Below are positions 16,230 through 28,320 of a DNA stretch of 53,057 nucleotides, one piece after another. Within the stretch, counting starts at the first letter, position 1. Every line of letters begins with the position of its first letter. Location: NCBI GenBank assembly GCA_902767725.1, contig CACXIM010000014.1, forward strand, positions 1-53,057, in the 5' to 3' direction. Below the pieces are notes generated by a model, which saw only the letters and a list, made by a program, of their open reading frames with translations, was not told where the DNA came from and searched no databases. The DNA comes from an uncultured Bacteroidia bacterium. Its GTDB lineage: Bacteria; Bacteroidota; Bacteroidia; Bacteroidales; F082. The translations under genes and the position numbers were made by a program.

Positions 16230-16319
16230 CAAAAGGATTGGCTTTTTCATCACCACAAATGATGAATGTTTTGAGAATTAGTATCATTAATTAGGATGAA
16301 AAGGTAAGGATTGTCTTTG

Positions 16320-16327
16320 TATTTTTG
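16320..16327 (+). promoter_or_regulatory. Promoter -7 box for feoAB
   Basis: TATTTTTG followed by CGG, 22 nt before ATG 16350. It excludes the earlier in-frame Met at 16311 as start. Confidence 0.6.
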
Positions 16328-16349
16328 CGGTCGGAAACAGAAGCCAAAA

Positions 16350-18716
16350 ATGATTACACTCGACAAATTAAATATCGGTCAATCCGCACGCATCAAGGCC
16401 GTGGAAGGCGAAGGCCAACGCCGCCAGCACTTCCTTGACATGGGCCTCATCCCTGATGCTGTCGTCAAACTCGTGAAATTTGCGCCCTTGGGCGACCCTA
16501 TGGAAATCATGGTGCACGGCTATGCACTAACGCTCCGCAAAGCCGATGCTGCCCTCATTGGAGTTGAACCCAACGACGATGCCCCAACGGAAGAAAATAA
16601 CAGTGACTCCAGCCTTGACCGCCTCTATATCACATCTTTACATGACCACAACGCCCACCCTGGCTTGGGCGAGGCAGGCATCTACCACGACAAGACCCAT
16701 GAAACGCCACTTCCAAAAGGCACCAAACTCACTTTCGCCCTTGCCGGACAACAGAACTGTGGCAAGACGACCCTCTTCAACCAACTGACGGGAGCCAACC
16801 AACATGTGGGCAACTTCCCCGGTGTCACTGTCGACCGCAAGGACGGCACCATCAAAGGGCATCCTGAAACCTCCGTCACCGACCTGCCGGGCATCTATTC
16901 ACTATCGCCTTACACCTCCGAGGAAATCGTCTCGCGCGAGTTCATCATGAAAGAGAAGCCCAAGGCTATCATCAACATCGTGGACGCCAACAACATCGAG
17001 CGCAACCTTTACCTCACCATGCAGCTCATGGAGTTAGGTATGCCTATGGTACTGGCTCTCAACATGATGGATGAAGTGCGCAACAACGGCGGCAGCATCC
17101 TCGTCAACGAGATGGAGCAAATCCTCGGTCTGCCTGTGGTGCCTATCTCGGCGGCCAAGAACGAAGGCATCAACGAGCTCGTTGACCATGCCATACACAT
17201 CGCAAAATACCAAGAAGCGCCTGTGCGTCAGGACTTTTGCGACAAGGACGACCACGGTGGCGCCGTGCACCGCTGCCTGCACAGCATCATGCACCTCATC
17301 GAGGACCATGCCCAGCGTGCCGACATCCCCGTGCGTTTTGCCGCTTCCAAGCTCATCGAAGGCGACACCATCGTCATGGATGCGCTGCAACTCTCACAAA
17401 ACGAGAAAGAAACCCTAGAACACCTCATCCTCCAGATGGAAGAGGAACGCGGCCTCGACTGCGCCGCAGCCATGGCTGAGATGCGTTTTGCCTTCATCAA
17501 AAGGCTCTGCGACAAGACTGTGATGAAGCCCAAGGAAAGCAAGGAATACCAACGCAGCCGCAGCATCGACCGCATTCTGACAGGCAAGTGGACGGCCATC
17601 CCCATCTTCATCCTCGTGATGATGGGCATCATCTGGCTCAGCATCGATGCCATAGGCGCACCCTTGCAAGACTGGCTCGACCAAGGCATCTCGTGGCTCG
17701 CAGAGGTCACAGGCAACGCTTTGGCCAACTGGGACGTCAGTCCTGCGGTGCAGTCGCTTGTTGTCGACGGCATCTTTGGCGGCGTGGGCAGTGTGCTGAG
17801 TTTCGTGCCTATCATCATTCTGCTATTCTTCTTCCTCAGCCTGTTGGAGGACAGCGGATACATGGCGCGCGTGGCCTTCGTCAGCGACAGTTTCTTGCGA
17901 AAGCTCGGCCTCACCGGTCACAGCATCGTGCCTATGCTCATTGGTTTTGGCTGCACCGTGCCCGCTGTCATGTCGACGCGCACCTTGCATTCCACCCACG
18001 ATCGTTGGCGTACCATCCTACTGACACCTTTCATGAGTTGCTCGGCCAAGATCCCAATCTATGCCTTCTTCACCAGCATGTTCTTCCCGCATCACGGAGG
18101 GTTGGTGCTGATAGGCTTGTATCTCTTGGGTATCATCGTCGGCATCGTCACTGCGCTGTTCACCAAATGGTTCGGCAACAAAGGCGACGTGGCCCCCTTT
18201 GTCATGGAGTTGCCCAACTACCGCCTACCGAGCCTCAAGAACGTGGCGCACCTGCTGTGGGATAAGACCAAGGACTTCCTGCAGCGTGCCTTCACTGTCA
18301 TTTTCATTGCCTCTTTGGTGATTTGGCTCCTGCAAACCTTCGACTTCCACTTTCAGATGGTCGAGAATGGCGAAGGCAGCATGTTGGCCAGTGTAGCCGG
18401 TTGGATTGCTCCCGTCTTCCGTCCTTTGGGCTTGGGTGAATGGCAAATCGTCACCGCCTTGGTGAGCGGTTTCATGGCCAAAGAAAGCGTGGTGGCCACC
18501 CTCGAGGTGTTGAATGCCATGCCGTTGTTCACCACCGTCACAAGCATCTCCATGCTAGTCTTCTGCCTGCTCTACACACCATGCGTGGCTGCCATGGCCG
18601 CAGTCCGCCGTGAGTTGGGCACCAAATGGATGCTCTTCATCATCCTGTTCCAATGCGTAGTAGCTTGGATTTGTGCATGGTTGGCTTTCCTCATCGCTAA
18701 TGCCATCATCGCATGA
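16350..18716 (+). CDS. feoB: FeoA-FeoB fused ferrous iron transporter
   Basis: 788 residues from ATG 16350. An N-terminal FeoA SH3-like domain (about 1-75: LDKLNIGQSARIKAV, HFLDMGLIPDAVVKLVK) is joined by an acidic linker to FeoB. The G domain has G1 GQQNCGKTTLFNQLTG (about 133), TVDRKDG, G3 DLPGIYSLSPY and G4 NMMDE; the membrane part has two gate segments (GFGCTVPAVMSTRTL with the conserved Cys, and LLYTPCVAAMAAVRRE). It imports Fe2+ across the inner membrane with GTP hydrolysis. The FeoA-FeoB fusion is common in Bacteroidota. The small Cys-rich gene downstream overlaps by 4 bp. Confidence 0.95.
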   Translation: MITLDKLNIGQSARIKAVEGEGQRRQHFLDMGLIPDAVVKLVKFAPLGDPMEIMVHGYALTLRKADAALIGVEPNDDAPTEENNSDSSLDRLYITSLHDHNAHPGLGEAGIYHDKTHETPLPKGTKLTFALAGQQNCGKTTLFNQLTGANQHVGNFPGVTVDRKDGTIKGHPETSVTDLPGIYSLSPYTSEEIVSREFIMKEKPKAIINIVDANNIERNLYLTMQLMELGMPMVLALNMMDEVRNNGGSILVNEMEQILGLPVVPISAAKNEGINELVDHAIHIAKYQEAPVRQDFCDKDDHGGAVHRCLHSIMHLIEDHAQRADIPVRFAASKLIEGDTIVMDALQLSQNEKETLEHLILQMEEERGLDCAAAMAEMRFAFIKRLCDKTVMKPKESKEYQRSRSIDRILTGKWTAIPIFILVMMGIIWLSIDAIGAPLQDWLDQGISWLAEVTGNALANWDVSPAVQSLVVDGIFGGVGSVLSFVPIIILLFFFLSLLEDSGYMARVAFVSDSFLRKLGLTGHSIVPMLIGFGCTVPAVMSTRTLHSTHDRWRTILLTPFMSCSAKIPIYAFFTSMFFPHHGGLVLIGLYLLGIIVGIVTALFTKWFGNKGDVAPFVMELPNYRLPSLKNVAHLLWDKTKDFLQRAFTVIFIASLVIWLLQTFDFHFQMVENGEGSMLASVAGWIAPVFRPLGLGEWQIVTALVSGFMAKESVVATLEVLNAMPLFTTVTSISMLVFCLLYTPCVAAMAAVRRELGTKWMLFIILFQCVVAWICAWLAFLIANAIIA

Positions 18717-20288: not shown

Positions 20289-21425
20289 TTATTCTTCCAC
20301 CAGATGGTAATACTTTGGCTGATAGCCTTCCCATTCATCCGTCAGCAATTCAGGATGGAAAAAATGAATGAAATCGGCCAACAATAAATCGGGCTCGCAC
20401 TGCGACTGCTCGAAATAACCCGTTGATAGGATGTCACAAACGATGATTTGGTGATTCTTGAACGCATCAAACAGTGGATAGACAGGACTTTCTTTCCCCA
20501 AGGACTCGTAGGTCATCGGGAAAGGATTGGAGTTGATGACGCGCCAATAGTCGGCATGCTGTGCCTTGGCGAGGATGCTCTCAGCATCCATCGGAACGCT
20601 GGCGGTTGATGGATTGTCTTTCCAAATGTAGTCGGCACCGGCATCGGCAAAGAGCTTGGCGATATAACTACGGCCACCCGCCACATACCACTGCCCGTTG
20701 AAGGCCAAGTCAGAGAACACTGTGGGACGGTGCTCCACCTCAGCACAAAGCGTTGAGAGGGCATTGTAGCGCTGCTCGATGTCGTCGAACCACGCGTCGG
20801 CCTTGTCCTCGCATCCTGCCAAGATGCCTATAACACGGATCCACTCGGCGCGGCCCAAAGGCGTATTCTCCATATAGTCCGCAAACGGAAACAGCACGGC
20901 ACCCGTGACATTGAGTCCGCCTTGGTTGCCGTCGAAATAAGGCGAATAGAGCAAAGCATCGGGCTGTAGCTGTATCATCCGTTCCACGTCGGCTGCAGCC
21001 TCCGTGCCGATGTCGTAGACCTTTCCCTCAGCAAGCAAAGCACGCATGGTGGAGTCTGTGACAAAACGGCCTTCCAGAATACCTTTCACACGTTCGATTT
21101 CTCCCAGACGAAGGAAAACAGCCCATTGCGTGGCCGAAAATGAAATCACCGACTTGACAGGAATCATAAGGACACCTTTCACATCTTGATCGACAGGCTT
21201 GGTCGTATCCTTGACAAAAGCGAACGAGCCCAAAGACAGTGTGGTGTCCCAAGGGCAAATCACTTCTGCACGATAGCCGTAGTCTTTCTCGTAAACCACA
21301 ATGTTTCGTGCATAGCGCATCAGATTGTCGCCTGTTTCCTTTTCAAAAGAATCATTGCCTTTAGGAGCACAAGCTGTAAACACGACAAACACTATCGCAC
21401 ACATAAGGTGCAAGATACAATTCAT
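20289..21425 (-). CDS. BtuF-like ABC-transporter substrate-binding lipoprotein (probable cobalamin)
   Basis: 378 residues from ATG 21425, with lipobox TACAPKG. It has the two-lobed class III periplasmic-binding-protein layout: ERVKGILEGRFVTD, EAAADVERMIQLQPDALLYSPYF (the equivalent of the 'P-D-lvi' strand), PLGRAEWIRVIGILAGCEDKADAWF, and a second lobe with FADAGADYIW. Bacterial BtuF/FhuD-like proteins share this. It is the last gene of the riboswitch-controlled operon, so cobalamin or cobinamide is the likely ligand; Fe-siderophore binding is the alternative. The upstream open frame (to 21554) lies over a repeat and is not used. No btuC or btuD follows. Confidence 0.8.
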   Translation of the reverse strand: MNCILHLMCAIVFVVFTACAPKGNDSFEKETGDNLMRYARNIVVYEKDYGYRAEVICPWDTTLSLGSFAFVKDTTKPVDQDVKGVLMIPVKSVISFSATQWAVFLRLGEIERVKGILEGRFVTDSTMRALLAEGKVYDIGTEAAADVERMIQLQPDALLYSPYFDGNQGGLNVTGAVLFPFADYMENTPLGRAEWIRVIGILAGCEDKADAWFDDIEQRYNALSTLCAEVEHRPTVFSDLAFNGQWYVAGGRSYIAKLFADAGADYIWKDNPSTASVPMDAESILAKAQHADYWRVINSNPFPMTYESLGKESPVYPLFDAFKNHQIIVCDILSTGYFEQSQCEPDLLLADFIHFFHPELLTDEWEGYQPKYYHLVEE

Positions 21426-21543
21426 ATTTGCACGCAGAATCCGCAGAAAACGCAGAATCCTATCGGCGACATAATTAGTGTCGCTTTGCGCTTCCCATAA
21501 TTCAGCGCATTCTGCGTGAGACAAATTACAAGCGTGAGGCATC
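21426..21543. repeat. Dispersed CGCAGAATCCGCAGAAAACGCAGA-type repeat region between CWC and BtuF-like genes
   Basis: The segment contains repeated CGCAGAA words (21434-21463) and a matching ATTCTGCGTG on the other side (about 21510-21520), forming an imperfect inverted repeat. It stays open in the BtuF frame, which creates a false N-terminal extension. Confidence 0.5.
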
Positions 21544-21708
21544 TTATTTTCCATTGATTTCCTCCAAACAGTCTTTACACACGCAATCGCTGTAATGCTC
21601 TTTTAAATAAGCTTTCGTGGCGTCGTTCAGTTTCACCTTCACGCACCAGCAGTCAATGGAATGCACGCATTCGAACGTTTTTCCGCAACGGGGACAGGTT
21701 TTGGTCAT
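21544..21708 (-). CDS. Small cysteine-rich CWC-family protein
   Basis: 54 residues from ATG 21708 (MTKTCPRCGKTFEC). Eight Cys are arranged as CPRC, C, CWC and CVCKDC, fitting the CWC domain family, presumed to bind zinc or another metal. It lies inside the B12 riboswitch operon between the BtuG-like and BtuF-like genes. Its role is unknown. Confidence 0.75.
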   Translation of the reverse strand: MTKTCPRCGKTFECVHSIDCWCVKVKLNDATKAYLKEHYSDCVCKDCLEEINGK

Positions 21709-21751
21709 TGTTGATTGTTGAATTGTTGAACTGTTGTCTGTTTTTAGAAAG

Positions 21752-21778
21752 TTTGGGCGGATTTGCAATCCGCCCAAA
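21752..21778. repeat. Perfect palindrome of the GGATTTGCAATCC family, copy 1
   Basis: Arms of 12 bp (TTTGGGCGGATT and its complement) around TGC. A partial second unit (GGGGATTTGCGACCCC) follows directly. Related copies are at 31378-31450 and 31992-32041. Confidence 0.7.
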
Positions 21779-21816
21779 CAGAGTTGGGGATTTGCGACCC
21801 CCTAAAAGAATATCAA

Positions 21817-22896
21817 TTATTTAAACAACATTGCACTGGGAATGATGCCTGCCTCGAATGAGTTCAGCAGCACACCATCGTTGGAATAACGATACACAGT
21901 ACCATTCATGGAATAGTTCTTTGCATCAGTAACATAGATGTCGCCCGTCCTGGGATCCACGGCCATGTTGTAGTACAGGGTTCCCGACTCGGCGGTGATG
22001 CGGAAGGTCTCCGACAAGTCCATGCTAGCCAAGTCGAAGCGACGCACTTCATTATTATAAATCATATAGAACTGATCGCCAGCAAGGTTAGACTTCAAGA
22101 CCTGCGCCGTGCCGTTGAACTCATAGCGACGTTGGGCCGTCTTCAGCATCGGATCGATTTCCCATAGCGAAGGGTTCTCGCCGTAGTCCATATCCCATGA
22201 GCGACCTTCGCAAAGCACCCACACATGGCCGTTCTTATCAACCACCATCGTGTTGGGCTCCTTGCCCACCTCGACATCGGCAACTTTCACGTCGTTGTTG
22301 ACATCGATGACCTGAACCGTGTTATAGCTGTCGTGCGAGTCAGCATTGATATAGTAGTAGGACCAATTGCTGACATATAGCTCATTGCCTACCTGCACCA
22401 TCTTTTCGGTGGTATTGCCTGTCTCGACAAAGCCCGCATGGGTCATATCCTCCGGATTGACAATCCAAAGGCCAGAGCCCATCAAGTCGCTGACGTATGC
22501 CTTGTTAGGCGCCACAAAGTGCATCTCACGAGGCGAATAGAAATCAGTGAGCTTGAAAGGCTTGGTGGTGTCGCACACCATCGTGTTGGCATTCACCTTA
22601 TAGATATAGTTGCTGTTATTGACAACGATATACAGTTGTCCGTCAACCAAGGCCATGCTTTGAGCCACATCGCCGAGTGGAGCATTGTTCACCTTGTAGA
22701 ACAAGTTGTTAACCACCGTGTCGGCCACAGGGTCATAGAACGTCAGCGAGGCGTTGGAGGCCTGATAGTTGCCTTCGTTGAGCAACAACACGCCTGAGCC
22801 AACGGTAAAGGTACTTGGATCGACAGGCTGGTCAGGCTTGCAAGAGAACAACAGCGCAGCGACAAAAGCCAACAATAACAGGTTTATTCTTTTCAT
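21817..22896 (-). CDS. BtuG-like beta-propeller surface lipoprotein (DUF5074-type)
   Basis: 359 residues from ATG 22896 with lipobox LLFSCKPD. Repeated blade-like strands (GQLYIVVNNSNYIYKVNANTM, NKAYVSDLMGSGLWIVNPEDM, NELYVSNWSYYYIN, GHVWVLCEG, GDIYVTDAKNYSMNGTVYRYS) indicate a seven-bladed YncE-like propeller, the fold of BtuG, which captures B12 on the cell surface of Bacteroides and hands it to BtuB (established for B. thetaiotaomicron). Placement under a cobalamin riboswitch strongly supports the call. The lipobox is followed by KPDQP, without an obvious strong acidic surface-export signal. Confidence 0.85.
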   Translation of the reverse strand: MKRINLLLLAFVAALLFSCKPDQPVDPSTFTVGSGVLLLNEGNYQASNASLTFYDPVADTVVNNLFYKVNNAPLGDVAQSMALVDGQLYIVVNNSNYIYKVNANTMVCDTTKPFKLTDFYSPREMHFVAPNKAYVSDLMGSGLWIVNPEDMTHAGFVETGNTTEKMVQVGNELYVSNWSYYYINADSHDSYNTVQVIDVNNDVKVADVEVGKEPNTMVVDKNGHVWVLCEGRSWDMDYGENPSLWEIDPMLKTAQRRYEFNGTAQVLKSNLAGDQFYMIYNNEVRRFDLASMDLSETFRITAESGTLYYNMAVDPRTGDIYVTDAKNYSMNGTVYRYSNDGVLLNSFEAGIIPSAMLFK

Positions 22897-22908
22897 CACT
22901 TATCGAAT

Positions 22909-23886
22909 TTATTGTTTCACAACACGTTTTGTAACGGTCATTCCATCAGCCTTGACGCGAACGAAATAAACACCTTCGTTCAGGTTGTCAAAGTTGATGA
23001 CTGAGGAATTGGAAGTCAAGACCAACTGGCCAACAAGATTGAATATCTCGACGGCTTGCAGATTTTCGGCGTTCACCGTCAGTCTCTCTTTTACGGGATT
23101 GGGATACAAAGCGATAGCAATCGTTTCGTTCTCTTGCACATCGTGGGCAATGTCATGAATCACGCCGACAGCATCGAGGTCCATACCACTGGAGGCGAAT
23201 CCCGTGGGCCAAGGGTCGTTGATGATATGCCCTTCCGAGTCGTAGGTGGCATATTGAGGGTCGATGTTGCCCACCACGTCGACAATGCGGACATGGGTGA
23301 TATGGTTTTTGTCGAGCAAGGCATTGTCCTCGACTTCGTCCAAGTCAAACGGAGTTCCATAAAATGCACCGTATTTACTGGCAAAATTATGGAGTTGTTC
23401 AGGAACGATGGAACCTGCATTACCCAATTGAGTTTCGGTTTGGACGTATGTAACAGCAGGAAAACGGAAGAAATTCTCGCCATCGGAGCTGACCTCCACG
23501 AAACCCAGCTCAAGTGCCCATGTATCTGGATTTTGCGCGTTGGCAAAACCATTCTCGAACACAGCGAAATCAGGGCCTATTCCATTACAAATGGGCGACT
23601 CGAAAGTCAAGGTGGCGGTGCCACCGTCACCAAGACTCACCACGTCCATCGTGCCGCCAGGCACGCCCAAGGCTAGCGTTTCTTCGCCAAATGAAGCAAG
23701 GCCGTTTTCCGGTTTGTCGATGCGCATTAGGCCACGTTCCACTGTGCAGCCCGTAGCCCAAGCCACGAAAGCCGAAGAGTCGGCATGCATGGCTGTGGTG
23801 CCGGGTTTGTCTTGCGCAGGCGCAAACTGTGCCCACAACGAAACCGGCACCATAGCCAACAGCAATATGGAGAGTCTCTTTATCAT
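22909..23886 (-). CDS. T9SS-type secreted protein, candidate B12-binding surface protein
   Basis: 325 residues from ATG 23886: signal peptide (LSILLLAMVPVSLWAQ), a domain with GDGGTATLTFE..NGIGPDFAVFENGF, FVEVSSDGENFFRFPAV, HITHVRIVDVVGN and ASSGMDLDAVGVI, and an intact T9SS type A C-terminal domain (LYPNPVKERLTV, VEIFNLVGQ, LNEGVYFVRVKAD, KRVVK). The VFENGF/DLDAVGV domain occurs in surface proteins encoded beside BtuG in Bacteroidota B12 loci (family knowledge, not checked). It would be exported by T9SS rather than as a lipoprotein. A function in B12 capture is inferred from operon and riboswitch. Confidence 0.75.
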   Translation of the reverse strand: MIKRLSILLLAMVPVSLWAQFAPAQDKPGTTAMHADSSAFVAWATGCTVERGLMRIDKPENGLASFGEETLALGVPGGTMDVVSLGDGGTATLTFESPICNGIGPDFAVFENGFANAQNPDTWALELGFVEVSSDGENFFRFPAVTYVQTETQLGNAGSIVPEQLHNFASKYGAFYGTPFDLDEVEDNALLDKNHITHVRIVDVVGNIDPQYATYDSEGHIINDPWPTGFASSGMDLDAVGVIHDIAHDVQENETIAIALYPNPVKERLTVNAENLQAVEIFNLVGQLVLTSNSSVINFDNLNEGVYFVRVKADGMTVTKRVVKQ

Positions 23887-23887
23887 T

Positions 23888-25105
23888 TCACCACAAGTTT
23901 CGCAGGCCACCGTTCAGCATCTCGGTGCTGATGCGGACTTGTTCGCCAGCCATGACGTCGGCGCTCACAGTGCTGACCATGCGGCCTTGCATGTCATACA
24001 CCGAAATCGTGGTCATGCCTGCGTTTTCAACGGTCACGAAAGCCTCGTTGACGGCAGGATTGGGATAGATAATCAGGCTGCTCAGAGCATTTTCATTCAC
24101 AGCGGTGTGCGGGTCGGTAGCAGGAAGAATCTCAGTCGTCCAAGAAATGGTGGTCCAGTCGTCGGACATGATGCCGCAAGCAACGCCACCAATCTTCACG
24201 AAATCGTTGTTGTGAATCGGTTCTTCAGCCATCATGTTCATACCCATCAAGCCATTCACGCTGTGCATGGGAACATCATAATCGGGATCGCCCCATTGGG
24301 CATCAGGATTCGGGCACATGGTCAGATTGTATTCATCATCCACATAGGTGATGTTGGTGGGAGCGGTACCAACAACAGTCAGACGCTCGTCGGCAGCTGC
24401 AATATCAGTAAGAGCTTGGAAAACAGTGGCATCGCCATCGAAACGGTAACCCCATGCCAGAGCGGTTTCAGTGTAGCTGCACCAGCTGAGGGCAATCACG
24501 ACCTCGTTTTCGCCTTCGCCAATCCAATATTTAATCTCGTCAGCGGTGATTGTGGCATCAACAACCTCTCCACCTGCATTCGGGTCGGTAGCGGGAATAA
24601 TCTCAGTAGTCCAAGAAATGGTGGTCCAGTCGGGGGACATGATGCCGCAAGCAACACCACCAATCTTCACGAAATCGTTGTTGTGAATCGGTTCTTCAGC
24701 CATCATGTTTTGGCCCATCAAGCCATTCACGCTGTGCATGGGAACGTCATAATCGGGATCGCCCCATTGGGCATCAGGATTAGGGCACATGGTCAGGTTG
24801 TATTCATCATCCACGTAGGTGATGTTGGTGGGTGCTGAACCGATGACCGTCAGGCGCTCGTCGGCAGCAGCGATATCAGTAAGAGCTTGGAAAACAGTGG
24901 CATCGCCATCAAAACGGTAGCCCCATGCCAAAGCAGTTTCAGTATAGCTGCACCAGCTGAGTGCAACCACAACCTCATTTTCGCCCTCGCCAATCCAATA
25001 TTGGATGTCGGCAGGATCGATAGTGGCATCTTGTTGTGCACACAAATTGGTCGTAAACAGACCGAAGATTCCCATAAGGAATGCTAAAGTAAAGATTTTA
25101 CGCAT
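23888..25105 (-). CDS. Secreted protein with two near-identical 156-residue domains and a damaged T9SS C-terminal domain; first gene of the B12 operon
   Basis: 405 residues with a signal peptide (MRKIFTLAFLMGIFGLFTTNLCAQ). Two tandem domains start at residues 32 and 188 (motifs YWIGEGENEVV, ETALAWGYRFDGDAT, IAAADERLTV, NITYVDDEYNLTMCPNPDAQW), differing at only a few positions. A T9SS type A domain begins normally (IIYPNPAVNEAFVTV, ISVYDMQGRMVS) but ends abruptly LNGGLRNLW. In another frame the same DNA reads AKLVVK then TGA, the canonical end, and that TGA overlaps the next gene's ATG. A short deletion with frameshift is therefore likely. It is the first gene after the cobalamin riboswitch; B12 binding is an inference. 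Confidence 0.75.
   Translation of the reverse strand: MRKIFTLAFLMGIFGLFTTNLCAQQDATIDPADIQYWIGEGENEVVVALSWCSYTETALAWGYRFDGDATVFQALTDIAAADERLTVIGSAPTNITYVDDEYNLTMCPNPDAQWGDPDYDVPMHSVNGLMGQNMMAEEPIHNNDFVKIGGVACGIMSPDWTTISWTTEIIPATDPNAGGEVVDATITADEIKYWIGEGENEVVIALSWCSYTETALAWGYRFDGDATVFQALTDIAAADERLTVVGTAPTNITYVDDEYNLTMCPNPDAQWGDPDYDVPMHSVNGLMGMNMMAEEPIHNNDFVKIGGVACGIMSDDWTTISWTTEILPATDPHTAVNENALSSLIIYPNPAVNEAFVTVENAGMTTISVYDMQGRMVSTVSADVMAGEQVRISTEMLNGGLRNLW
24115..25012 (-). repeat. Intragenic tandem duplication (two ~460-bp units)
   Basis: Unit 1 spans about 25012-24545 and unit 2 about 24544-24115 in transcription direction. They match closely at DNA level, including a long identical run around the PMHSVNGLMG codons and the PIHNNDFVKIGG codons, which points to a recent duplication or gene conversion. 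Confidence 0.85.
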
Positions 25106-25168
25106 AATAATATAATTTTAGGTTTGACATTCAATCCATTACATCCTTATTTATAAGGAAAGCCAGCT

Positions 25169-25199
25169 CTTGTCCCGAAAGCTTCGTTTCAGCGACAAG
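25169..25199 (-). promoter_or_regulatory. Hairpin downstream of the B12 box (candidate expression platform)
   Basis: In the minus-strand RNA, CTTGTC and GACAAG pair around a 19-nt loop directly after the B12 box. A loop here could form the L5-L13 kissing contact known from cobalamin riboswitches. There is no U-tract, and the start codon is about 64 nt further on, so control may be translational or may need additional pairing. Confidence 0.5.
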
Positions 25200-25352
25200 C
25201 GGCAGGTCTTCTGACTTACTCCTTTGGTCTGGCCACCTTCCCGAAAGACTAGGTTTTCAGTGGCATATAGGCCAGCGTGAAGAGCTTACAGCAGCGGGAA
25301 CTGTCCGGGATTTTCACCCGATTCCCTATTGAGCCTTTCGGCACCGCTTATC
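25200..25352 (-). ncRNA. Cobalamin riboswitch
   Basis: On the minus strand the leader contains the features of the AdoCbl-family aptamer: GGTGCCGAAAGGC at the 5' side, AATAGGGAATCGGGTG..AATCCCGGACAGTTCCCGC (P3-P6 core), GCCACTG with GGGAAGGTGGC, and the B12 box AGTCAGAAGACCTGCC at 25201-25216. It precedes the first gene of the operon with the BtuG-like and BtuF-like genes, which should be shut off when cobalamin is abundant. Confidence 0.93.
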
Positions 25353-25357
25353 GGCGG

Positions 25358-25365
25358 CAAAGATA
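25358..25365 (-). promoter_or_regulatory. Promoter -7 box of the B12 operon
   Basis: TATCTTTG followed by CCGCC on the minus strand, placed so that the transcript would start immediately before the riboswitch 5' side. Confidence 0.65.
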
Positions 25366-25449: not shown

Positions 25450-28320
25450 ATGAAAAGACTATCATTAATAATTCCCATTCTGTTGATGGCAATGGGATTG
25501 CTACACGCACAAGATGTCTATTTCTCCGGAAACCATAATGGGACGGGAAAGATATGGAAAAACGACTCGATAGTCCATACTATCTCCGATTCCTTGAACG
25601 TAACATTGAATGCCTTGCAAGTCAAACCTGACGGAACCGTCTACTCCGCAGGCTGCATCTCTGATATGGAACAATCCATAGGACGCCTCTGGGAGAACGA
25701 AAGTGTATTGTTTACGGTAGGTGAACATGCTTTTATCAACAACTTGATGCTCAACGGAAACGATTGGACCGCTACTGGAATCGAACAAAACGAATGGGGC
25801 ATTAACAAAGGTGTCGTTTGGAACAACGGTGACATCCTCTATGCCTTTAACGACAGCATCGTGCCTAACGAAATCTACGCCATGTATATTGACACGATCA
25901 ACGGCGACATCTATACTGGTGGCGCGACAGACTCGATCGGAACAGCCATTGTGTGGAAAAACGACACGGTGTTTTGGGAGGCCGACCTCTTCTCCACGGC
26001 ATGCTGCCTCTACCATGACGGCACCAACCTCTACGTGGGTGGATACTATTATTTGGAAGGGCTGCTGATGGCCACCCTTTGGGAGAACGGAGAAATCCTC
26101 TATTCCTTTGGCGACAGTCTTACCTCTGTTTTCCAAGCCATTGACATCTATGACGGCGACATCTACACTGCTGGCTATGCCGAAGACTCTGTCTTCGTAT
26201 GGAAAAATGGCGAAGTACTCTATTCGCATCCCTACGATGAATTTGGTAGTATCTTAGCCTTGATTGTCAACGAATACGGTGTTTATTATGCTGGCCATAT
26301 TGATCAAGAGGGCATGGTATGGAAAGATGGCGAAATCCTTTACCAACCAGAGGACTGCGACGAGATCACTGCACTTGTCGTGATGCCCACTGAGCCCCTG
26401 CCTTCTTTTACCCTCACCGTCGAGGTCGACAGCATCGGAGGAGGCACCGTCACGGGAGGAGGCACCTACTATTATGGCGACACGGCCACCATTGAGGCCA
26501 TCCCTGACATGGGTTGTGAGTTCCTTTTCTGGAACGACGGCATCGTCACCAACCCGCGTGATATCATCATCACCCAAGACACCACCTTCGTCGCCCATTT
26601 CAACCATTTCAATTACACCATCGAGACCGCTGTCGTTCCGCTCAACTCGGGCATAGTCACTGGGGGCGGCAGCTATCCATACGGCGACACCATCACCCTT
26701 GAGGCCGTCGCCAATCCCGGTTACATCTTCGAAAGATGGACCGACAGTGTCACCGACAATCCTCGTGAAGTCATCGTCACCCAAGACAGCGTTTTCATCG
26801 CCATGTTCAGCCTTCGCCAATACACCATCACCGTCGAAAGCGACAACCCCGAATGGGGCTCTGTGACAGGAGGTGGCACTTTCTACTACGGCGACACCAT
26901 CCAGATTGAGGCCATTGCCAACTACGGCTACACGTTTTCCTTCTGGACCGATGAGGGCGACGGCAGCTATGAAAACCCGCGAACCATCATCGTCACCGAA
27001 GACCAGACCTTCATCGCGCACTTCGGCATACAGCAATGCGTCATCCAGACCGGTGTCGTCCCTGAAGGTGCAGGAACCGTAACTGGGGCTGGAGGGTATC
27101 TTTATGGAGACACCATCACCTTGACAGCCCAAAGCAATTTTGGCTACGTCTTCAACCATTGGGATGACGGCGTGACCGACAACCCAAGAACCATCATCGT
27201 TGAAGGCGATGCCACCTATATCGCCATCTTCACGCCGCAGCAGTTCGAAATCACCACAGAATGTGACCCCGTGGAAGGCGGCACGGTGAGCGGTGCAGGA
27301 ACATACGACTACGGCAGCATCATCACCCTGACTGCCACGCCCAATGAATACTACGCCTTCCTATGCTGGAGCGACGGCATTGCTGCCAACCCACGCAACG
27401 TCACCGTGACCGGCAATGCGAACTACAAAGCCATGTTCCATCTCAATGGCACACCGCAATACACCATCACTGTGGTGGCTAACGATACGTTGTTAGGCAC
27501 CGTTACTGGCGGCGGCACCTTTGACCAAGGCACCACCATCGAAATCAGTGCCACGCCTAATGGTGGCGCCCGCTTCATGAGCTGGGACGACGGCAATACC
27601 GACAACCCGCGCAGCATCGAAGTCACGCAAAACATGACTTTCATGGCTATATTTGCTGAAATCCCTGTTTTCACCATCACCGTAAGGCCCGATAATCAAC
27701 TTCTTGGCTCTACCTACGGTAGTGGCACATATATGCTCAACCAAGTCGTCACCATCGGTGCCACGCCCATCAATGGCTACTATTTCTCTGGTTGGCAGGA
27801 CGGCGACATGAACAATCCACGCACCATCGTCGTTACAGGCAACGCCGTATACATTGCCTCGTTTACACAAAACCCAGTGCAGACCTACACCGTTAGCGTA
27901 CTTTACGACGAAGCCCAAGGCTTCATCCTCGGCACTGGTACCTACGCCGAAGGCAGCATAGCCACCATCGCCGCCATACCCGCCGATGGCTTCTGCTTCA
28001 AGAGATGGGACGACGGCACTACCGACAATCCCAAAGAAATCCTAGTCGACCACGACATCGTTCTGGCGGCATTCTTTGAATTCACCAGCGTTGACGAGAA
28101 CGGCTTCGAGACCATTAGCCTCTACCCCAACCCCGCCAACGACAAGATCCACATTGAAGGGCTGGAGGGCGAACATGAAGTCCAGATCTACAACGCCTTC
28201 GGCATGTTAGTCTTGACGACGGACATAGATGGTGCCGGTGAAATCAACATCGAAAAGCTGAACGCAGGCATCTACTTCATCCGCATCAACGGTCATGCCG
28301 TGAGATTCATTAAAGAATGA
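25450..28320 (+). CDS. Large T9SS surface protein: seven-unit propeller-like region plus eight InlB-type repeats
   Basis: 956 residues. After the signal peptide (LIIPILLMAMGLLHAQ), residues about 25-315 hold seven units ending in W(K/E/N)N(G/D).(I/V)L(Y/F) (WKNDSIVHT, WENESVLFT, WNNGDILYA, WKNDTVFWE, WENGEILYS, WKNGEVLYS, WKDGEILYQ), suggesting a seven-bladed propeller. Residues about 318-877 contain eight tandem ~70-residue repeats with GTVTGGGTYYYGD, a W.DG core and NPR.I.VT..., i.e. divergent InlB B-repeats. The end is an intact T9SS type A domain (LYPNPANDKIHIEG, LNAGIYFIRINGHAVRFIKE). Probably a surface adhesin or binding protein; the ligand is unknown. Confidence 0.85.
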   Translation: MKRLSLIIPILLMAMGLLHAQDVYFSGNHNGTGKIWKNDSIVHTISDSLNVTLNALQVKPDGTVYSAGCISDMEQSIGRLWENESVLFTVGEHAFINNLMLNGNDWTATGIEQNEWGINKGVVWNNGDILYAFNDSIVPNEIYAMYIDTINGDIYTGGATDSIGTAIVWKNDTVFWEADLFSTACCLYHDGTNLYVGGYYYLEGLLMATLWENGEILYSFGDSLTSVFQAIDIYDGDIYTAGYAEDSVFVWKNGEVLYSHPYDEFGSILALIVNEYGVYYAGHIDQEGMVWKDGEILYQPEDCDEITALVVMPTEPLPSFTLTVEVDSIGGGTVTGGGTYYYGDTATIEAIPDMGCEFLFWNDGIVTNPRDIIITQDTTFVAHFNHFNYTIETAVVPLNSGIVTGGGSYPYGDTITLEAVANPGYIFERWTDSVTDNPREVIVTQDSVFIAMFSLRQYTITVESDNPEWGSVTGGGTFYYGDTIQIEAIANYGYTFSFWTDEGDGSYENPRTIIVTEDQTFIAHFGIQQCVIQTGVVPEGAGTVTGAGGYLYGDTITLTAQSNFGYVFNHWDDGVTDNPRTIIVEGDATYIAIFTPQQFEITTECDPVEGGTVSGAGTYDYGSIITLTATPNEYYAFLCWSDGIAANPRNVTVTGNANYKAMFHLNGTPQYTITVVANDTLLGTVTGGGTFDQGTTIEISATPNGGARFMSWDDGNTDNPRSIEVTQNMTFMAIFAEIPVFTITVRPDNQLLGSTYGSGTYMLNQVVTIGATPINGYYFSGWQDGDMNNPRTIVVTGNAVYIASFTQNPVQTYTVSVLYDEAQGFILGTGTYAEGSIATIAAIPADGFCFKRWDDGTTDNPKEILVDHDIVLAAFFEFTSVDENGFETISLYPNPANDKIHIEGLEGEHEVQIYNAFGMLVLTTDIDGAGEINIEKLNAGIYFIRINGHAVRFIKE

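Follow-up and report, generated by a model that had tools for sequence, protein, structure and literature searches.

What is the role of two probably secreted proteins that are encoded directly behind a cobalamin riboswitch, at the head of a putative operon for the capture of vitamin B12? The question is raised by positions 20289 to 25365 of a 53,057-nucleotide stretch of DNA (the window), which is contig CACXIM010000014.1 (here C14) of assembly GCA_902767725.1, a 3.06 Mb draft genome of an uncultured Bacteroidia bacterium (Bacteroidales, F082) that is in 153 contigs and 79.6% complete. The initial annotation, made from the sequence alone, took both proteins to be cargo of the type IX secretion system (T9SS) and to represent families without a name. 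Neither family proved to be nameless, as gene 2 encodes a remote BtuH-type protein and gene 1 appears to be of the DUF4430/transcobalamin-like kind. We think it quite probable that the operon is a B12-repressed module for cobamide capture, in which the products of genes 1 and 2 are exported binders that feed BtuG, BtuB, BtuF and BtuCD.

The riboswitch and the order of genes

The leader of the operon is a full-length cobalamin riboswitch aptamer (Table 1), which is the sole Rfam match at gathering score in the window. Its B12 box (25201-25216) agrees with the 16-base pattern at every base, and even with up to 2 mismatches allowed 0.03 occurrences of that pattern would be expected in the window. 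On the minus strand the riboswitch is followed by gene 1, gene 2, and the genes for a BtuG-type lipoprotein, a CWC protein and a BtuF-like protein, in that order. The initial annotation had recognised the riboswitch and had given the last three genes these labels and coordinates, all of which hold. It was also right that there is no btuB, btuC or btuD inside the operon.

Gene 2 - a shortened BtuH-type domain

When an alignment of 29 sequences of the gene 2 family was compared with the PDB, the best match was to the BtuH part of 8blw_B, a chain of a B12 lipoprotein from Bacteroides thetaiotaomicron that carries the name BtuG1 in the Foldseek listing (whole-sequence E 2.1e-9, best stretch chain residues 394-497). 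A profile of the family without the sorting tail in turn matches the proteins at the BtuH1, BtuH2 and BtuGH positions (E 5.9e-9, 7.7e-9 and 5.5e-10) in comparison loci from a close relative of B. thetaiotaomicron, the BtuGH stretch of which is 93% identical to that of B. thetaiotaomicron. The sequence match to BtuH holds by profile in both directions. The predicted fold points the same way. An AlphaFold2 model of the gene 2 domain (m27305558599f, pLDDT 89.1, pTM 0.89), made without any Bacteroides BtuH sequences, has 8blw_B as its top Foldseek match (E 3.4e-4, probability 1.00) and only match below 0.001, with discoidin and CBM folds next at E 0.004 and above.

For BtuH2 the B12-contacting residues are given as Gln333, Asn399, Phe401, His476, Tyr510, Trp511, Trp577 and Leu578, with Asn399 and Phe401 touching the phosphate and the lower ligand (PMC8941943). 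In the gene 2 family the N of the NxF motif formed by Asn399 and Phe401 never varies and the F hardly does, and an H is aligned with His476 in part of the family. BtuH2 positions were reached through a 593-amino-acid relative, the numbering of which matches that of the paper at 399, 401 and 476 and not at 333, 510, 511, 577 and 578. Two lipoprotein relatives of gene 2 (L173 and L159) were left out of this residue alignment, and a relative in genome G101 (L075), which resembles a beta-barrel protein (PF13568 is found in one of the 29 members), was excluded from it and from the tail-less profile and kept in the counts. We conclude that by sequence and predicted fold gene 2 encodes a shortened and remote BtuH-type domain.

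The family is present in 29 of 296 Bacteroidota genomes, the window genome included. A riboswitch lies on the same strand no more than 6.5 kb upstream in 17 of the 28 other genomes, where random placement would give 0.037, and an ORF labelled BtuG is in the fetched stretch at 22 of the 28 loci. Gene 2 itself ends in a full T9SS type A domain (TIGR04183 cut-off 23 bits), and a tail of this type is found at E 0.001 in 16 of the 29 members. Locus L115, from a Flavobacterium, and locus L124, from a Chryseobacterium, have at the place of gene 2 a form with a lipobox, as judged by a simple pattern. The window genome has two genes for the T9SS sortase PorU (1172 and 994 bits, cut-off 420), and given these and its C-terminal domain the gene 2 product is predicted to be secreted as T9SS type A cargo.

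Gene 1 - a tandem domain of a probably transcobalamin-like kind

Gene 1 has two copies of one domain, identical at 139 of 152 residues and at 90% of bases, and 25 of the 38 codons in which they differ are synonymous and 13 nonsynonymous. Pfam and NCBIfam models give nothing above cut-off for the window copy of the gene except in its tail. Orthologues in two congeners have DUF4430 (PF14478, cut-off 23.8 bits) at 73.2 bits (G494) and 47.6 bits (G395). In G494 there are three copies of the domain rather than two, and the operon has the same order as in the window, with the three-domain gene 1 followed by the BtuH-like gene, BtuG, CWC and BtuF; in G395 the riboswitch is followed by genes 1 and 2 alone. 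Across the family DUF4430 is matched at E up to 1 by 7 of 45 domains (best 1.7e-9) and at E 0.001 by 3 of 35 full-length proteins, which were hand-chosen from the loci and are not all of the relatives found.

An AlphaFold2 model of the domain made on 24077-24565 (mc83755660dc3, pLDDT 89.1, pTM 0.85) gave as its first Foldseek matches two chains of 3u7z, which we take to be a DUF4430-type protein, and then transcobalamin, intrinsic factor and haptocorrin. Chains of B12 carriers make up 15 of the first 19 matches (E 0.11-0.62), being many chains of few proteins, and human transcobalamin beta-domain (5np4) has a TM score of 0.57 by target length. The model has short strands after the helix at 48-58, which may or may not correspond to the beta-hairpin that is inserted after the helix in transcobalamin-like proteins and contacts B12 there (PMC1796856). 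Because the Foldseek hits are consistent and there is a separate match to DUF4430, and although single E-values are weak, the results suggest that gene 1 is of the DUF4430/transcobalamin-like kind, with its fold resting on prediction.

Several other identities were considered. The PDB sequence matches of gene 1 to neurexin (E 0.28-1) and to the insulin receptor (E 0.7-1.3) were judged to be due to chance; there are also matches in PHROGs, the best with E 1.6e-6. A DUF4465/BtuJ identity was rejected for lack of a PF14717 match, which gene 2 lacks too, and BtuK and BtuL were rejected as gene 1 has no match in the operons of the close B. thetaiotaomicron relative. Of the proteins that occupy the two BtuK positions there, one is BtuG-like (E 8.4e-22) and neither has the gene 1 domain.

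The gene 1 family is linked to the riboswitch almost without exception. The domain is found in 30 of 247 genomes of the order, with the window genome included, and the 29 others have 42 matches, several of them copies within one gene. A cobalamin riboswitch on the same strand and up to 6.5 kb upstream accompanies 40 of the 42 matches (27 of the 29 genomes), and for 14 of the 40 it is within 220 bases. The two genomes lacking the link, G371 and G474, are without any riboswitch match; the homologue in G371 is 312 bases from a contig end, and G474 is 73% complete. In a phylum-wide sample, which shares G230 with the order sample, the riboswitch is present for 5 of 6 matches outside the window genome and the sixth is about 1.5 kb from a contig end. 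Of 198 relatives in named genomes the best 80, mostly from Chryseobacterium and Flavobacterium, were scanned for a B12 box: every one of these loci has it upstream in the same orientation and 1 of the 80 has one elsewhere, and Rfam confirmed the riboswitch in all 8 loci submitted. DUF5074, the BtuG domain, is in the same polypeptide in 13 of the 35 chosen proteins and a T9SS tail in 27, the partial tail of the window gene being counted. The initial annotation had made its case depend on an association with riboswitches or btu genes elsewhere, and this is now seen with riboswitches and btuG for both families.

A protein in G296 (L204:1531-3708) has the gene 1 domain, the gene 2 domain and a T9SS tail in one chain.

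The sorting tail of gene 1

The proposal that both proteins are T9SS type A cargo stands for gene 2 and only in part for gene 1. The gene 1 tail is above the cut-offs, with 28.2 bits for TIGR04183 (cut-off 23) and the same for PF18962, but it covers only positions 1-40 of 72 in the first model and stops short in the second as well (Table 1). DNA alignment with G494 and G395, in both of which gene 1 is intact, shows that 40 bases are missing between 23906 and 23905, with loss of the frame. The deletion may be real or it may be an assembly error. As the sorting tail is truncated in this genome, export of the gene 1 product is here doubtful.

Other genes of the operon and the rest of the B12 system

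Table 1. Features of the operon in the window. Signal peptides of genes 1 and 2, the BtuG lipobox and the BtuF start were called by eye.
Feature	Positions	Strand	Evidence
Cobalamin riboswitch aptamer RF00174, operon leader	25184-25363	-	109.7 bits (gathering score 31.5), E 1.1e-26, full model 1-189
Gene 1: signal peptide, two tandem DUF4430/transcobalamin-beta-like domains, truncated T9SS type A tail	23888-25105	-	
Gene 1 domain copy 1	24575-25030	-	91% identical to copy 2
Gene 1 domain copy 2	24098-24559	-	AlphaFold2 model and Foldseek
Gene 1 partial T9SS sorting domain	23906-24070	-	PF18962 28.2 bits, cut-off 27, positions 1-56 of 75
Gene 2: signal peptide, BtuH-like domain, T9SS type A sorting domain	22909-23886	-	
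Gene 2 BtuH-like domain	23128-23829	-	AlphaFold2 model, Foldseek top match 8blw_B
Gene 2 T9SS type A sorting domain	22912-23109	-	PF18962 51.2 bits, TIGR04183 53.7 bits
BtuG-type propeller lipoprotein (DUF5074)	21817-22896	-	PF16819 71.6 bits, cut-off 27.2; lipobox LLFSC
Small cysteine-rich CWC protein	21544-21708	-	PF14375 48.9 bits
BtuF-like ABC substrate-binding lipoprotein	20289-~21425 (ORF up to 21554)	-	PF01497 81 bits, cut-off 27.5

The third protein of the operon is of BtuG type. In the PDB its best-scoring chains are 8p97_B (E 4e-59) and 8okv_B (E 1.2e-57), presumably both BtuG structures, and 8blw_B is also matched (E 1.1e-16); as a BtuG it would bind cobamides very tightly and form a complex with BtuB. 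The BtuF-like protein may be specific for cobamides; its profile hits, in two Bacteroides loci, the gene that stands in the place of btuF (E 1.7e-40 and 1.2e-41). The first 43 residues of its listed ORF are probably not translated, as the ATG at 21425 gives a lipoprotein signal. Both the CWC protein and the BtuF-like orthologue are kept in the operon of G494 (L193).

The suggestion that the operon serves a transporter encoded elsewhere fits the rest of the genome, as far as its completeness goes. There is one strong btuB candidate at C6:35988-37877 (E 1.6e-139, next best 7e-10) with no riboswitch nearby, and the single FecCD permease match of the genome is on C89 with an ABC ATPase alongside, these two being the putative btuCD. 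An ORF that by eye is transposase-like (C89:2664-3608) lies just upstream of the btuC candidate.

The genome has six cobalamin riboswitches, and one of the others precedes two T9SS-tailed DUF4465 (BtuJ-type) proteins. There are thus at least three proteins of B12-binder families with complete T9SS tails, plus the damaged gene 1 product, beside the lipoproteins BtuG and BtuF. The riboswitch at C6:82338-82520 (-) is directly followed by a gene for a 1906-amino-acid Fn3/MAM protein with no known B12 domain (C6:76476-82196, -). Another (C6:84716-84900) is ahead of an acetyl-CoA hydrolase/transferase family gene (L008:2289-3611, -; PF13336/PF02550), and that at C11:29406-29594 is ahead of a pair of genes that by eye resemble anaerobic ribonucleotide reductase genes. 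The riboswitch at C63:2775-2954 is ahead of an HpaB family gene (PF11794/PF03241), which we take to be 4-hydroxybutyryl-CoA dehydratase-like, and the locus (L009:3212-8774) also has genes that by eye are CoA-transferase-like and dehydrogenase-like. Perhaps these form a route for succinate that needs no B12 and comes into use once the B12-dependent route fails.

Near the operon in the window there is a divergent gene at 25450-28320 (+) for a 956-amino-acid T9SS-tailed protein with eight InlB-type repeats, and G494 has a 1038-amino-acid T9SS-tailed protein at the matching position. A FeoA-FeoB fusion gene is at 16311-18716 (+), and a gene that looks similar by eye adjoins the operon in G395.

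Proposed function and alternatives

In Bacteroides operons of this kind the riboswitch allows expression at low B12 (PMC12751083), and the same would apply here. The gene 1 and gene 2 products, the one with tandem transcobalamin-beta-like domains and the other BtuH-like, would then be exported by Sec and after that by the type IX system, and either remain on the surface or be released, binding cobamides there. The cobamide would be handed to the BtuG lipoprotein, which would be partnered with the unlinked BtuB, and the BtuF-like lipoprotein would then pass it to BtuCD. We infer B12 binding, surface display and hand-over from genomic association, homology and predicted folds.

A number of observations weigh against this proposal. 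Compared with BtuH2, the gene 2 domain is missing two stretches (about 28 and 52 alignment columns), and the second of these, around residue 510, is where several of the corrin contacts are. No riboswitch is nearby for 11 of its 28 relatives, one of which (in G101) is likely to be a false match. For gene 1, profile searches gave no DUF4430 match for the window copy, and at E 0.001 none in 27 of 31 genomes (found in 4), these being the window genome and 30 others with the family. The Foldseek E-values of gene 1 are 0.03-1.3, with the best at 0.03 and none below 0.001, the B12-carrier chains represent few proteins, and comparison of the family profiles with the PDB found no transcobalamin by sequence. 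In this genome its tail is not a complete C-terminal sorting domain. Finally, no cobalamin binding was seen for BtuL, a lipoprotein whose operon is repressed by B12 (PMC12751083), and therefore membership of such an operon is no proof of B12 binding.

The case of BtuL also lends support to the view that genes 1 and 2 encode proteins of the surface or of vesicles that are regulated by B12 without binding cobamides themselves, for example adhesins or vesicle shapers. The riboswitch-led Fn3/MAM protein of the same genome and the resemblance of the gene 2 fold to discoidin/CBM32 domains could be read in the same way. However, a B12 lipoprotein, 8blw_B, is the best match of gene 2 in both sequence and fold, the fold matches of gene 1 after 3u7z are mostly to B12 carriers and many relatives have its domain joined to BtuG, and we consider a non-binding role unlikely. 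It is more improbable still that the two proteins bind a related ligand, such as cobamide precursors, products of corrinoid breakdown or another tetrapyrrole. It has been noted that a different metabolite may be scavenged by the transcobalamin-like proteins of archaea (Burroughs et al. 2007, PMC1796856), and gene 2 lacks the region of several corrin contacts, but the riboswitch is of a class that senses cobamides and the neighbouring genes are for BtuG and a BtuF-like protein.

There is a more serious chance, if still the lesser one, that gene 1 is decaying or mis-assembled in this strain and that only gene 2, BtuG and BtuF are at work, which is compatible with cobamide capture by the family as a whole. 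It would account for the frame-shifting deletion relative to both congeners, and the genome is an incomplete draft in many contigs. Against it, both domain copies are open and the differences between them are largely synonymous, which fits constraint, or else recent copying.

Relation to known systems

Capture at the cell surface has been described for BtuG, BtuH, BtuJ and BtuK (PMC6143338, PMC10404256, PMC8941943, PMC12751083, PMC13398666). The window operon has in common with the cobamide loci of B. thetaiotaomicron (BtuB/BtuG/BtuH/BtuJ/BtuK/BtuL) the riboswitch, BtuG, the BtuH-type and BtuF-type proteins and capture proteins that here, too, would act outside the outer membrane. It differs in that two members have T9SS tails instead of lipid anchors and in that btuB, btuC and btuD are unlinked. 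Two Bacteroides genomes were examined and the gene 1 domain was not detected in their loci, but it is present in B. pyogenes. Compared with BtuH2 (PMC8941943), gene 2 shares the profile, the fold and the NxF motif, and is without the PKD domains and the lipid anchor as well as the two segments. The DUF4465/BtuJ family (IPR027828) also consists of extracellular B12 binders, and 229 of its 824 members are reported to have the C-terminal extracellular targeting motif IPR026444 (PMC12751083). T9SS-type B12 binders are therefore not new as such, this family being already in print, and neither gene 1 nor gene 2 matches its Pfam model.

The predicted fold of gene 1 is like that of the C-terminal beta-domain of transcobalamin and of DUF4430 (SLBB superfamily, transcobalamin-like clade), the latter being found at the C-terminus of transcobalamins (PMC4350170). 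Unlike transcobalamin, no alpha/alpha toroid partner was noticed for gene 1, which has instead tandem copies and, in the family, BtuG fusions and T9SS tails. Bacterial transcobalamin-like domains have been predicted to scavenge B12, and the available part of that study lists the clade for animals, low-GC Gram-positives, planctomycetes and euryarchaea and not for Bacteroidetes (Burroughs et al. 2007, PMC1796856). In the open-licence literature, covered mostly as titles and abstracts, we found no description of a Bacteroidota transcobalamin-like branch, of its near-constant riboswitch link or of its fusions to BtuG and T9SS tails, nor of T9SS-tailed BtuH-like proteins.

More speculatively, and with rather low expectation, it may be that homologues of the half of human transcobalamin that grips B12 are sent out of Bacteroidota cells by the T9SS as multivalent 'cobalophores', and that in the BtuG fusions the propeller and the beta-grasp domain close on the corrin from both sides, as a counterpart of the two-domain sandwich of transcobalamin and intrinsic factor.

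Bacteroidota compete for cobamides as nutrients, and the proteins that have been described as capturing them in Bacteroides are lipoproteins. The data suggest that the riboswitch-linked transcobalamin-like family is an overlooked bacterial way to catch B12. If this is so, the repertoire of capture proteins would be widened to Flavobacterium, Chryseobacterium and many Bacteroidales, there would be protein scaffolds for binding B12, and a testable function would be available for a domain in proteins where the Pfam and NCBIfam models tried mostly name only the T9SS tail and DUF5074.

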